Below are positions 5,169-8,482 of a DNA stretch of 37,607 nt, piece after piece. The stretch is from an uncultured Prevotellaceae bacterium (GTDB lineage Bacteria > Bacteroidota > Bacteroidia > Bacteroidales > Bacteroidaceae): positions 1 through 37,607 of the forward strand of contig ONJJ01000042.1 in assembly GCA_900318115.1 (NCBI GenBank). Direction: 5' to 3'. The notes under the pieces are model-generated. The model was not told the origin of the DNA. It searched no databases and saw only the letters and a program-made list of their open reading frames with translations. Position numbers and translations under genes: made by a program. The first letter of the stretch is position 1. Every line of letters starts with the position of its first letter.

Positions 5169-6191
5169 ATGAATAACGTATTTGTATATTGCGAAATAGA
5201 AGGTACTCAGGTACAGGAAGTATCTCAGGAGCTGCTGACCAAGGGTCGCAAACTCGCCAATACGCTGGGTGTTGAGCTCCACGCCGTCGTTGCCGGTACC
5301 GGCATCAAGGGCAAGGTGGAAGAGCAGATTCTGCCCTACGGCGTCGACAAGCTCTTCGTCTTCGACGGCGAAGGACTGTTCCCCTACACCTCGGCTCCCC
5401 ACACCGACATTCTGGTGAACCTCTTCAAGGAGGAGCAGCCGCAGATCTGCCTCATGGGTGCTACGGTGATTGGCCGTGACCTCGGGCCCCGCGTCTCTTC
5501 ATCCCTCACCAGCGGCCTCACCGCTGACTGCACGGAACTGGAGATCGGCCCTTATGAGGACAAAAAGAATAATAAGGTATATGAGAATCTGCTCTATCAG
5601 ATCCGTCCCGCCTTCGGAGGCAACATCGTCGCCACCATCGTCAATCCCGAACATCGTCCTCAGATGGCCACCGTGCGCTCCGGCGTGATGCAGAAAGCCC
5701 TCTACGAAGGCGCTTGCCGCAAGGAAGTCGTCTATCCCGAGGTCTCGAAGTATGTCTCGCCTGAGGCTTACGTCGTCCGCGTGCTCGACCACCACGTGGA
5801 GGCCGCCCGCCACAACCTGAAGGGTGCTCCCATCGTCGTCGCCGGCGGCTACGGCATGGGCTCCAAGGAAGGCTTCGACATGCTCTTCGAGCTGGCAAAG
5901 GTGCTGCACGGAGAAGTCGGAGGTTCGCGCGCTGCCGTGGATGCTGGCTTCTGCGACCACGACCGCCAGATCGGCCAGACGGGCGTCACCGTCCACCCGA
6001 AGGTCTATATCGCCTGCGGCATCAGCGGACAGATCCAGCACATCGCCGGCATGCAGGATTCCGGCATCATCATCAGCGTCAACTCCGACCCCGATGCGCC
6101 CATCAACAAGATCGCTGACTACGTCATTGTTGGTACTGTTGAAGAGGTAGTTCCCAAGCTCATTAAGTATTATAAGCAGAACAGCAAATAA
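5169..6191 (+). CDS. etfA: Electron transfer flavoprotein subunit alpha
   Basis: 340 aa. The C-terminal FAD-binding half is clear: GGSRAAVDAG, RQIGQTG, ACGISGQIQHIAGM and NSDPDAPINKIADY appear in the usual order between about 250 and 325. The N-terminal domain (about 1-190) is the adenine-nucleotide-like fold shared with EtfB. It follows etfB after 6 bp and shares its promoter. Its stop codon is followed within 4 bp by a palindromic repeat and a GC-poor nuclease gene, which now separate it from the acyl-CoA dehydrogenase. Confidence 0.95.
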   Translation: MNNVFVYCEIEGTQVQEVSQELLTKGRKLANTLGVELHAVVAGTGIKGKVEEQILPYGVDKLFVFDGEGLFPYTSAPHTDILVNLFKEEQPQICLMGATVIGRDLGPRVSSSLTSGLTADCTELEIGPYEDKKNNKVYENLLYQIRPAFGGNIVATIVNPEHRPQMATVRSGVMQKALYEGACRKEVVYPEVSKYVSPEAYVVRVLDHHVEAARHNLKGAPIVVAGGYGMGSKEGFDMLFELAKVLHGEVGGSRAAVDAGFCDHDRQIGQTGVTVHPKVYIACGISGQIQHIAGMQDSGIIISVNSDPDAPINKIADYVIVGTVEEVVPKLIKYYKQNSK

Positions 6192-6194
6192 GAA

Positions 6195-6241
6195 GCCTCA
6201 CCCCCGCCCCCTCTCCGAAAGGAGAGGGGGGAGGAGGGTGA
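6195..6241. repeat. GC-rich palindromic repeat, copy 1
   Basis: The core is CCCCCTCTCC (6207-6216), loop GAAA, GGAGAGGGGG (6221-6230), a perfect 10-bp stem. Flanks GCCTCACCCCCG and GGAGGAGGGTGA extend the near-palindrome. The same element in inverted orientation is at 6791-6831. Together they bracket the DUF559 gene. As RNA it would be a very stable hairpin between etfA and the downstream genes; there is no T-tract. Confidence 0.9.
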
Positions 6242-6255
6242 ACACACAAAGATAA

Positions 6256-6636
6256 ATGTCGAACGATTGGATAAAGACTTCTGCTCCTGATAGATACCTG
6301 CTACTAAAGGATTTTGCGAAAAAGAACCGGCGGGCAATGACGGTGAGCGAAACCATACTTTGGAATGCACTAAGGGAACTGGCAGGTGGTTATAGGTTCA
6401 GACGGCAGCATCCGATTGGAGATTATATCGTGGATTTCGTATGCTTGAAAAGGAAACTGGTCATAGAGGTAGATGGTGGCTATCATGATCAACCTCAACA
6501 GCAGCAGGAAGACCAATGGCGCTCAGACTTTCTTGAGAAGATGGGTTACATGGTACTTCGCTTCAGCAACGAAGAAATAAACAATAACCTCAATGGGGTT
6601 TTAGAGAGAATAAAAAAAGAATTAATAAACGTATAA
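6256..6636 (+). CDS. DUF559 family PD-(D/E)XK nuclease-like protein
   Basis: 126 aa, full length for the small stand-alone DUF559 proteins, which are related to very-short-patch-repair endonucleases. Visible features are the helix SETILWNALR (31-40) with E32, then RFRRQHPIGDYIVDFVC with D60, and LVIEVDGGYH with E71, D73 and H77, in the order of a PD-(D/E)XK core. The gene is visibly poorer in GC than etfA and the dehydrogenase, a sign of transfer. It lies between two inverted copies of a palindromic repeat (6195-6241 and 6791-6831) and interrupts an etfBA-dehydrogenase unit. Biochemical function of such genes is unknown; nuclease activity is inferred from the fold. Confidence 0.88.
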   Translation: MSNDWIKTSAPDRYLLLKDFAKKNRRAMTVSETILWNALRELAGGYRFRRQHPIGDYIVDFVCLKRKLVIEVDGGYHDQPQQQQEDQWRSDFLEKMGYMVLRFSNEEINNNLNGVLERIKKELINV

Positions 6637-6643
6637 AGTTAAT

Positions 6644-8482
6644 ATGAACTATTATAGCGACCATCCTGAAATTGGATTTTATCTGAACCATCCTCTGATG
6701 GCTCGTATTGTCGAGCTGAAGGAAAAAGGTTTCGCTGACGCAAAAGAATATTCCGCCAGCTTATCTTCTGCTGCCGCAAACAACGCGCCAGCCTCCCCCC
6801 TCTCCTTTCGGAGAGGGGTCGGGGGTGAGGCCGCTCCCGTTGACCTCGGCGATGCCATCGAGAACTATCGCCAGATTCTCGACATCACGGGCGACGTGGC
6901 TGCCAACATCATTGCTCCCAACTCTGAGAGCGTGGACCTCGAAGGACCGCACCTCGAGAACGGACGCATGATCTACGCCTCCAAGACCTTCGAGAACATC
7001 GATGCCACGCGCAAGGCCGGACTCTGGGGAGTCTCCATGCCCCGTCGCTACGGCGGCCTGAACCTGCCGAACGTCGTCTTCTCCATGCTCAGCGAGGTCA
7101 TCTCTGCTGCCGACGCCGGATTCCAGAACATCTGGAGCCTGCAGAGCTGCATCGACACACTCTATGAGTTCGGCTCCGAGGAGCAGCGACAGAAATACAT
7201 CCCCCGCATCTGCGCCGGAGAGACCATGTCCATGGACCTCACAGAGCCCGATGCAGGCTCCGACCTCCAGCGCGTCATGCTCAAGGCCACCTACTCTGAG
7301 GAAGAAGGCTGCTGGCTCCTCAATGGCGTCAAGCGATTCATCACCAACGGCGACTCGGACATACACCTCGTGCTCGCTCGTTCCGAGGAGGGCACCACGG
7401 ACGGACGCGGACTCTCCATGTTCATCTACGACAAGCGCCAGGGCGGCGTCAACGTGCGCCACATCGAGCACAAATTGGGCATACATGGCTCCCCCACGTG
7501 CGAACTTACTTATAAGAACGCGCGCGCAGAGCTCTGCGGAAGCACCCGCCTGGGACTCATCAAGTACGTGATGTCTCTCATGAACGGCGCTCGTCTGGGC
7601 ATTGCCGCACAGAGTGTGGGACTCTCCCAGGAAGCTTACAACGAAGGCCTCGCCTATGCCCGCGAGCGTGCGCAGTTCGGACAGAAGATCATCGGCTTCC
7701 CCGCCGTTTACGACATGCTCTCACGCATGAAGGCCAAGCTGGATGCCGGACGATCGCTGCTCTATCAGACTGCTGCATACGTCGATATCTACAAGGCGCT
7801 GGAGGACATCGAGCGCGACCGCAAGCTCACGCCCGAGGAGAAGCAGGAGCTGAAGAAATACCAGCGACTGGCCGATGCCTTCACGCCTCTGGCCAAGGGA
7901 ATGAACTCCGAGTATGCCAACCAGAATGCCTACGACGCCATCTCCATCCACGGCGGTTCGGGCTTCATCATGGAGTACAAGTGCCAGCGCCTCTACCGCG
8001 ACGCACGCATCTTCAGCATCTATGAGGGTACCACCCAGCTGCAGGTTGTCGCCGCCATCCGCTATATCATCAATGGCACCATGCTCCAGAATATCAAGGA
8101 CCTGGCCGGCTCCCTGTGCTGCGATGGCGTCGAAGCTCCCCTCGCCGCTCCCTCAGCTTCCATTTCTGCCTCCTCCTCAGCCTCCCTCGCCGCCCTCAAG
8201 GCTCGCGTCGAAGCCCTCATCCCCGTCTACGAGGAGGCTCTCGCCACCGTCAAGGCGCTGGAGAACCAGGAGGCCATCGACTTCCTCTCCCGTCGCCTCT
8301 ACGACATGACCGCCGAGATCGTGATGTCCCTGCTCATCATCCGCGATGCTGCCCAGGCTCCCGACCTCTTCGAGAAGAGCGCCGTGGTCTATGTGGGCAT
8401 GGCTGAGGAAGACGTCCTGGGCAAGGCTGCCTACATCAAGAACTTCCAGCCCGCAAGCCTCGCCAATTTCCGTGCCGAGTAA
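6644..8482 (+). CDS. Acyl-CoA dehydrogenase with in-frame repeat insertion
   Basis: 612 aa, matching the ~570-600 aa Bacteroidetes acyl-CoA dehydrogenases that carry a C-terminal helical extension. The start MNYYSDHPEIGFYLNHPLM is typical. Flavin-fold signatures include MSMDLTEPDAGSDLQ and GVKRFITNGD in the middle domain, and IHGGSGFIMEYKCQRLYRDARIFSIYEGTTQLQ, where E461 is the predicted catalytic base. Residues 50-63 (ASPLSFRRGVGGEA) are encoded by a copy of the palindromic repeat found upstream. A second low-complexity Ala/Ser stretch at about 497-518 links the dehydrogenase and C-terminal helices. With etfBA upstream, it probably oxidises or reduces a short acyl-CoA; chain length is unknown. 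Confidence 0.92.
   Translation: MNYYSDHPEIGFYLNHPLMARIVELKEKGFADAKEYSASLSSAAANNAPASPLSFRRGVGGEAAPVDLGDAIENYRQILDITGDVAANIIAPNSESVDLEGPHLENGRMIYASKTFENIDATRKAGLWGVSMPRRYGGLNLPNVVFSMLSEVISAADAGFQNIWSLQSCIDTLYEFGSEEQRQKYIPRICAGETMSMDLTEPDAGSDLQRVMLKATYSEEEGCWLLNGVKRFITNGDSDIHLVLARSEEGTTDGRGLSMFIYDKRQGGVNVRHIEHKLGIHGSPTCELTYKNARAELCGSTRLGLIKYVMSLMNGARLGIAAQSVGLSQEAYNEGLAYARERAQFGQKIIGFPAVYDMLSRMKAKLDAGRSLLYQTAAYVDIYKALEDIERDRKLTPEEKQELKKYQRLADAFTPLAKGMNSEYANQNAYDAISIHGGSGFIMEYKCQRLYRDARIFSIYEGTTQLQVVAAIRYIINGTMLQNIKDLAGSLCCDGVEAPLAAPSASISASSSASLAALKARVEALIPVYEEALATVKALENQEAIDFLSRRLYDMTAEIVMSLLIIRDAAQAPDLFEKSAVVYVGMAEEDVLGKAAYIKNFQPASLANFRAE
6791..6831. repeat. GC-rich palindromic repeat, copy 2 (inside CDS)
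   Basis: CCCCTCTCC, TTTC, GGAGAGGGG core, with flanks GCCTC and TCGGGGGTGAGGC. Its reverse complement matches the element at 6195-6241 closely, so the two copies are inverted. It is read in frame as codons 50-63 of the acyl-CoA dehydrogenase. Confidence 0.9.

Follow-up and report, generated by a model that had tools for sequence, protein, structure and literature searches.

REPtrons are systems in which a single gene for a tyrosine transposase associated with repetitive extragenic palindromes (REP), the RAYT, lies between palindromes with a tagged foot; gene-less copies are dispersed in the genome and also occur inside genes, according to the account in PMC3733652. Homing endonucleases of the EDxHD type, such as I-Bth0305I (structure 3r3p), occupy conserved genes and spread horizontally to the same site, and a genome paper assigns DUF559 proteins to this family (PMC9403480). 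Vsr endonucleases have a related fold; as PMC12907096 reports, the E. coli vsr gene usually adjoins a cytosine methyltransferase gene, and the Caulobacter DUF559 protein VsrA is responsible for a DNA-damage response in cells that lack a methyltransferase. Here we describe an element in a 37,607-nucleotide stretch of DNA (the window, contig 62 of a 3.33-Mb draft genome of an uncultured Prevotellaceae bacterium) in which a DUF559 gene lies between two inverted copies of a palindrome. We judge it likely that this is a small selfish mobile element consisting of a homing-type nuclease (DUF559) with REP-like palindromic ends.

Description of the element

The element and its two host genes are laid out as follows.

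6195..6831, + strand: whole element, 637 bp, with left palindrome, DUF559 gene, first ~49 codons of acd and right palindrome
6195..6234, + strand: left palindrome, C-rich foot GCCTCACCCCCG followed by the hairpin CCCCCTCTCC-GAAA-GGAGAGGGGG
6256..6636, + strand: DUF559 gene, 126 aa, predicted Vsr/EDxHD-type nuclease (PF04480, 125.7 bits)
6644..6791, + strand: start of the acyl-CoA dehydrogenase gene acd, inside the element in this lineage
6792..6831, - strand: right palindrome, inverted copy, in frame in acd as the peptide SPLSFRRGVGGEA
5169..6191, + strand: upstream host gene etfA (Pfam ETF, ETF_alpha), with 3 nt separating its stop codon from the left palindrome
6644..8482, + strand: downstream host gene acd (Pfam Acyl-CoA_dh)

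A first-pass annotation of this DNA had described a GC-poor DUF559 gene in GC-rich surroundings with the same palindrome on each side in opposite orientation, and both points were borne out: the GC content of the gene is 0.42 vs 0.58 for etfA and 0.60 for acd, and positions 6195-6234 and 6792-6831 form a 40-nt inverted repeat that is 98% complementary. Each palindrome copy consists of an asymmetric foot and a hairpin, both feet pointing outward, and 6195-6241 folded as single-strand DNA gave -19.3 kcal/mol (z -4.6). The right palindrome, which had been taken as intergenic, is in fact ~49 codons inside acd, and the element therefore also encloses the acd start; acd residues ~38-62 are missing in relatives. 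The annotation had named the peptides SPLSFRRG and LTPDPSPKGEG as products of this type of palindrome, and they are indeed readings of the window palindromes. Between the ends, DUF559 is the sole open reading frame (ORF) with a Pfam match tested, the others being short mechanical ORFs.

A known RNA family for the palindrome was rejected (24.2 bits vs a cut-off of 66, a sub-threshold chance match), as was an intrinsic terminator or attenuator at the left palindrome, which has no T-run behind it; an Rfam scan of window positions 5900-7100 at E<=1 gave no intron. As its nearest named relatives the DUF559 search gave mostly Bacteroidaceae/Prevotella assemblies, many of them apparently from ruminants. 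Host genes here and below (etf, acd, leuS, metH, recG, pheT, hsdR, argB, speA and leuB) were named from Pfam or NCBIfam, and the upstream etfB/etfA order was taken from the window.

Palindromes at DUF559 genes

Bracketing was assessed by an inverted-repeat score, for which the left flank is compared with the reverse complement of the right flank, and by a hairpin test, which requires a pyrimidine-rich hairpin on both sides of the gene. The family set came from 121 genomes of the family (62 loci scored; 1/63 dropped, flank too short) and the named set from another collection of 80 loci (77 scored; 3/80 dropped, flank too short). Phylum-wide loci were also examined, as were plasmid and phage loci, the latter being 20 of 42 listed hits (59 records matched) hand-picked to span genera; 5/29 phylum DUF559 loci and 8/30 loci of PF05635, a four-helix-bundle family used as a control, were dropped at contig edges. 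Four named loci duplicate family loci (L147=L070, L165=L093, L181=L049, L208=L065), and the main counts changed little when recomputed without them, a removal that covered the family and named sets; the hairpin-test controls were drawn before it.

A DUF559 hit is present in 36/121 family genomes, and, as the first-pass annotation had supposed, the palindrome is enriched at DUF559 genes across genomes, relative to random intervals as well as matched genes. Inverted-repeat scores of at least 20 were found at 32/62 family loci vs 2/756 random intervals from the same stretches, and scores of at least 18 at 59/77 named loci vs 3/912 controls; the two sets together, duplicates removed, give 92/136 at that threshold. 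The median unit length is 526 bp across 92 distinct units. By the hairpin test, 120/179 DUF559 loci have hairpins on both sides vs 1/1496 control intervals, divided among the family and named sets without duplicates (98/135; controls 0/504 and 1/640), plasmid and phage loci (7/20; control 0/160) and phylum-wide loci (15/24; control 0/192). The same test on matched genes found 0/22 for PF05635 and 1/97 for other ORFs of 90-180 aa.

Outside Bacteroidota, 9/20 of the hand-picked plasmid and phage loci reach a score of at least 18 (control 0/600), namely those of Pseudanabaena (2), Deinococcus (3), Sphingomonas (3) and Sphingobium; the remaining 11 fall below 18 and include Synechocystis, Picosynechococcus and a phage scaffold. 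In the window's own genome, 4/5 PF04480 hits are bracketed, each by its own palindrome sequence, and one is a truncated relic. The fifth hit (C28:136331, 20.7 bits, without ends) was taken as false.

Evidence for movement as a unit

The comparisons indicate that the element ends at its two palindromes and that nuclease and palindromes move together. Locus L154 has a DUF559 gene 87-90% identical to those of L158 and L147, which are at different sites. DNA homology between L154 and L158 covers 5932-6423 and 5927-6417, respectively, with none beyond, and its limits in L154 fall within 2 nt of the palindromes (5933 and 6421). L158 and L147 have some neighbour genes in common in changed order, so the difference between these two may be a local hop.

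The two palindrome arms of a locus have a similarity of 0.78 over all loci and 0.81 in the same-genome set, vs 0.30 for arms of different loci in both. For pairs at different sites, palindrome similarity is 0.28, 0.43 and 0.82 (8 pairs) at DUF559 identities of 45-55%, 65-80% and 80-95%, respectively. Palindrome type follows the nuclease lineage, and the supposition that DUF559 genes and palindromes are not independent has stood up.

A recent transfer is suggested by comparison with genome G162 of the same genus, whose identity to the window is 86.6% in etfA and 88.6% in the acd core. Outside the unit, identity is 83-94% per 100 nt save for one gapped stretch (8100-8199). Within it, 421/422 bases match over 6193-6614, the acd start (6644-6763) is identical at 116/120 positions, the right palindrome matches at 39/40, and the first host difference past it is at 6841; this near-identity is broken by a patch at 6615-6658 and by an insertion of 36 nt in G162. 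A recent crossing between species thus appears to have involved the unit, together with 120 bp of acd, but not its flanks. That the element is more alike than its flanks as a general same-site rule was rejected (median difference -0.056 over 192 pairs, a set that partly mixes the two etf operon junctions, etfB/etfA with 7 loci and etfA/acd with 11), and recent transfer therefore rests on the single pair of window and G162.

Empty, gene-less and full sites

Sites in relatives show full, gene-less and solo-palindrome forms of the element. Among 30 etfA/acd loci from 61 genomes of the genus, 25 junctions were readable: the full unit is present in 5, a relic in 1, a gene-less palindrome pair in 2, a gene of four-helix-bundle type in 5 and other filler in 4, and the remaining 8 are empty (~40 nt or less). 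At speA/argB (25 readable junctions of 30 loci), there are 4 gene-less pairs (one decayed), 1 single palindrome and 1 other filler, while 19 have only 3-93 nt and lack this palindrome; L154 and L168 hold a full unit there. Empty sites in relatives, which the first-pass annotation had proposed to look for, thus occur alongside occupied alleles at etfA/acd, speA/argB and two leuS sites.

By these comparisons, the element stands either at stop/start junctions of operon genes or in frame within host proteins. Units begin at the stop of the upstream gene (median distance 0 nt; 73/80 between -45 and +10) and run with the operon, 80/94 upstream and 78/93 downstream genes being co-directional. No clear target-site duplication was seen at the unit ends, where direct matches of at least 3 nt occur in 10/92 vs a shuffled mean of 11.4 and of at least 4 nt in 5/92 vs 3.1; transposition with target-site duplication is not supported by these counts. 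A specially open downstream frame across the palindrome was also set aside: this frame is open in 70/78 cases, which shows little because the other two frames are nearly as often open (58/78 and 52/78).

The 139 DUF559 hits distribute over 70 site clusters, and the DUF559 tree clusters by site, requiring 19 changes among 10 sites (71 rows, duplicates removed) vs a shuffled mean of 44.9 and minimum of 40. In the etf operon, which offers two junctions for the unit, the DUF559 genes of L130 and L058 are sisters (SH-aLRT 96) with host proteins only 76% identical, and L058 and the window are 95% identical in host proteins and 53% in DUF559.

Other contents of these sites were noted. PF05635 genes, present in 55/61 genus genomes and several times in the same etfA/acd junction, have inverted arrays of short repeats on either side, mostly AT-rich and varying from locus to locus (L121, L122, L126, L127, L129, L256-L285; inverted-repeat score at least 15 in 16/22 vs 0/220), and the four-helix-bundle genes bracketed in this way look like a second, parallel element type. 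The junction is filled by other gene-less short repeat arrays in L113, L124 and L128, perhaps gene-less forms of the four-helix-bundle type. Locus L048 (G021 contig 39, 47500-52327) has three copies of DUF559 in a 5-kb stretch, including one in frame with leuB.

Palindromes without the gene

Palindrome copies were counted with one IUPAC pattern and its reversed control; the pattern was used in place of a covariance model because the MAFFT alignment misplaced the 3' stem. It matches in 23/121 family genomes, and its reversed control in none of them. Strong DUF559 hits (>80 bits) and the pattern occur together: 15/29 genomes with such a hit have it vs 8/92 without, and 12/29 vs 2/92 have at least 5 copies. 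The window's own genome, in which a count of the palindrome had been envisaged, has 31 copies by pattern, most without an adjoining DUF559 gene, and direct reading of the sequence showed both gene-less pairs and solo copies. Among the listed copies lying within 300 bp of each other, 26 pairs are in the '+-' orientation (feet outward), 4 '++', 2 '--' and 1 '-+'. The foot consensus is about AGRCYYHMCCCCC and C-rich, and 110 parsed feet start AGA, GCC, AGC or GAC.

DUF559 inside host proteins

DUF559 is carried by 78/148 phylum genomes, and many of the best phylum hits are a DUF559 domain within a long open frame. Pfam and NCBIfam host matches stand on both sides of DUF559 in leucyl-tRNA synthetase (LeuRS; two places), MetH (one place in two genomes), RecG, PheT, HsdR and modification enzymes of Eco57I/ISP type. 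Of 14 in-protein loci, the hairpin test found hairpins on both sides at 6 (pheT, recG, metH and leuS among them), on one side at 6 and on neither at 2; these hairpins read as linkers, e.g. PLSLGEGQGER and VLPTGEDLGGAG. The interrupted leuS is the sole leuS over the cut-off in each of six genomes, both leuS sites are DUF559-free in aligned relatives, and a Pfam scan of 16 ORFs at E<=1e-10 found no intein domain. The long interrupted protein presumably works without splicing.

The leuS frames L369 and L370 (genomes G246 and G199, neither with a DUF559 hit) are 1081 and 1062 aa long and have small extra segments at the first insertion site, possibly scars. DUF559 is often within restriction-modification genes or in a BREX locus (L353, L358, L359, L363, L354, L355, L230), the restriction-modification hosts being hsdR at several places and Eco57I- and ISP-type enzymes.

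The nuclease

The AlphaFold2 model of the DUF559 protein (pLDDT 88.6, pTM 0.84) was matched by Foldseek to 3hrl and to the I-Bth0305I catalytic domain 3r3p (E 5.7e-5, TM 0.81 by target length) and, less strongly, to Vsr 1vsr and 1cw0 (probability 1.00; E 0.015 and 0.017, respectively). The sequence match to 3r3p has E 0.0045, the NCBIfam vsr match is weak and below its cut-off, and the 126-aa protein has no second separate Pfam domain. Residues E32, D60, F61, E71, D73, G74, H77, D86 and R89 are invariant in 145/145 rows (4 rows duplicate others), and the protein is thus predicted to have an EDxHD/Vsr-type nuclease domain with its conserved residues and would be expected to cut DNA. The ratio of nonsynonymous to synonymous substitution rates (dN/dS) has a median of 0.09 and a range of 0.03-0.20 in the 13 of 25 pairs for which it was computable, 11 of the others being saturated and 1 having dS 0; these values indicate strong purifying selection on the nuclease.

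Interpretation

The sequence comparisons support the earlier suggestion of a mobile system made of a nuclease and a palindrome, and the unit is presumably mobile. We infer that the DUF559 nuclease itself drives the movement, because of its fold, conserved residues, site loyalty, transfer and co-variation with the palindromes. DUF559 would nick or break the unoccupied allele of its home site, and repair from the occupied copy would install the element there (homing). By recognising the hairpin and foot of its own ends it may occasionally jump to new sites, and it may act in trans on palindromes that lack the gene, mobilising them in the way proposed for RAYT and REP. Translated as Gly/Pro/Ser-rich linkers, the palindromes would double as harmless ends and so allow the element to reside within coding sequence. 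The element in the etfA/acd junction of the window would then have been exchanged recently, as a unit, between related species. Homing to a loyal site, rarer jumps and trans-mobilisation via the palindromic ends are probably the most economical account.

A broader reading, to which we lean only slightly, is that such units form an undescribed pan-bacterial class that spreads into conserved genes and stays in frame without splicing even in leucyl-tRNA synthetase, with SPLSFRRG- and LTPDPSPKGEG-type peptides as its non-autonomous offspring; persistence in essential proteins would then be possible because the palindromic ends encode tolerated linkers.

Several observations weigh against a selfish nuclease with palindromic ends. 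The window unit includes part of acd, unlike a clean insertion, and the 192 other same-site pairs gave no second clear case of recent transfer. A Mantel test gives a modest correlation between palindrome and nuclease (r 0.23, vs at most 0.13 in 500 permutations), and a small excess of direct matches of at least 5 nt at the unit ends (3/92 vs 0.8) is unexplained. This one palindrome pattern is absent from 14/29 DUF559 genomes, and it is present in genomes G010 (23 copies) and G089 (28 copies), where no DUF559 hit reaches E<=0.001. By inverted-repeat score the phylum set gives a weaker signal (at least 15 in 7/24 vs 0/288 controls), and the Azospirillum (3), Sinorhizobium, Methylobacterium, E. 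coli, Photobacterium and Geobacillus loci score 12 or less and never have hairpins on both sides; DUF559 genes without palindromic ends exist too. VsrA, finally, is interpreted in PMC12907096 as a mismatch-repair enzyme. Some of the palindrome copies in G010 and G089 are in tandem, with four G010 copies in L255.

The palindromes could instead be mobile units moved by another enzyme, RAYT-like or a host function, with DUF559 a passenger between two copies. The gene-less majority of the own-genome copies and the palindromes of G010 and G089 would fit this, yet it leaves unexplained why the same gene family is bracketed in Cyanobacteria, Deinococcota and Alphaproteobacteria too and why palindrome type tracks the nuclease lineage, and PF05635 genes of comparable size, some of which occupy the same junction, have hairpins on both sides in 0/22 cases; we regard it as unlikely. 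Slightly less probable still is a pure homing endonuclease gene, spread by cutting the empty site only, with the palindromes as by-products or insulators. Site loyalty, same-site transfer, the I-Bth0305I fold and the lack of a clear target-site duplication at the unit ends all agree with it, whereas palindromes that end copies at unrelated sites, co-vary with the nuclease and scatter without it, mostly in one orientation, do not. A resident host nuclease for repair or defence, whose hairpins adjust the expression of the operon and whose apparent mobility is due to ordinary recombination, would suit the strong purifying selection and the tie of Caulobacter VsrA to methylation and repair in the account of PMC12907096, but is very improbable given the patchy presence in the family and the spread over 70 site clusters, DUF559 inside leuS, metH, recG and pheT, and an element tract 421/422 identical between flanks of 83-94%.

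If a selfish nuclease with palindromic ends is the correct reading, it would give a function to the large uncharacterised DUF559 family, an origin to the palindromic peptides scattered through bacterial proteins and a further way for a selfish element to inhabit essential genes without splicing. With fewer than 700 bp in the element and 126 aa in its nuclease, both DNA-hairpin recognition and homing are directly testable.

Comparison with known systems

The likeness to REP and RAYT seen by the first-pass annotation extends to layout (a bracketed gene, gene-less pairs and solo copies) and stops at membership. The REPtron gene is a RAYT, an HUH single-tyrosine transposase, whereas DUF559 is a Vsr/EDxHD-type nuclease by prediction, and none of 180 feet begins with GTAG, while 2 contain GTAG and 2 CGTC, the two REP tags. 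Unlike REPtrons, DUF559 loci of one genome have unlike palindromes, and the nuclease lineages keep to their sites.

With EDxHD homing genes the unit shares the nuclease fold, occupancy of conserved genes and same-site horizontal spread, its conserved site being empty in relatives. It differs in being inserted with no intein domain (16 ORFs) or Rfam intron (window 5900-7100), in ending in palindromes of its own and in having derivatives without the gene. An extended DNA-binding region is described for I-Bth0305I in PMC3943268, whereas the DUF559 protein has 126 aa. Vsr endonucleases share the fold; unlike them, DUF559 rides a mobile unit, on the present reading.

Rickettsia palindromic elements (RPE) are not known to carry a gene. 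They resemble the DUF559 unit in having palindromes in frame within proteins and differ in ending in CGTC, according to PMC3733652. A repeated segment of Legionella likewise combines DUF559 with a transposase in a recombination hotspot; compared by description only, it is larger and has its own transposase, and the account in PMC12308824 that we drew on does not mention palindromes. Insertion sequences and miniature inverted-repeat transposable elements share terminal inverted repeats with the unit, which differs from them in having no clear target-site duplication and no match to a DDE, HUH, serine or tyrosine transposase. Because no description of a palindrome-bounded DUF559 unit was found in the open-access papers searched (subscription journals and bioRxiv lay outside this scope), and because the unit fails a tested defining feature of REPtrons, of insertion sequences and of intron- or intein-borne homing endonucleases, it appears to represent a new kind of element.

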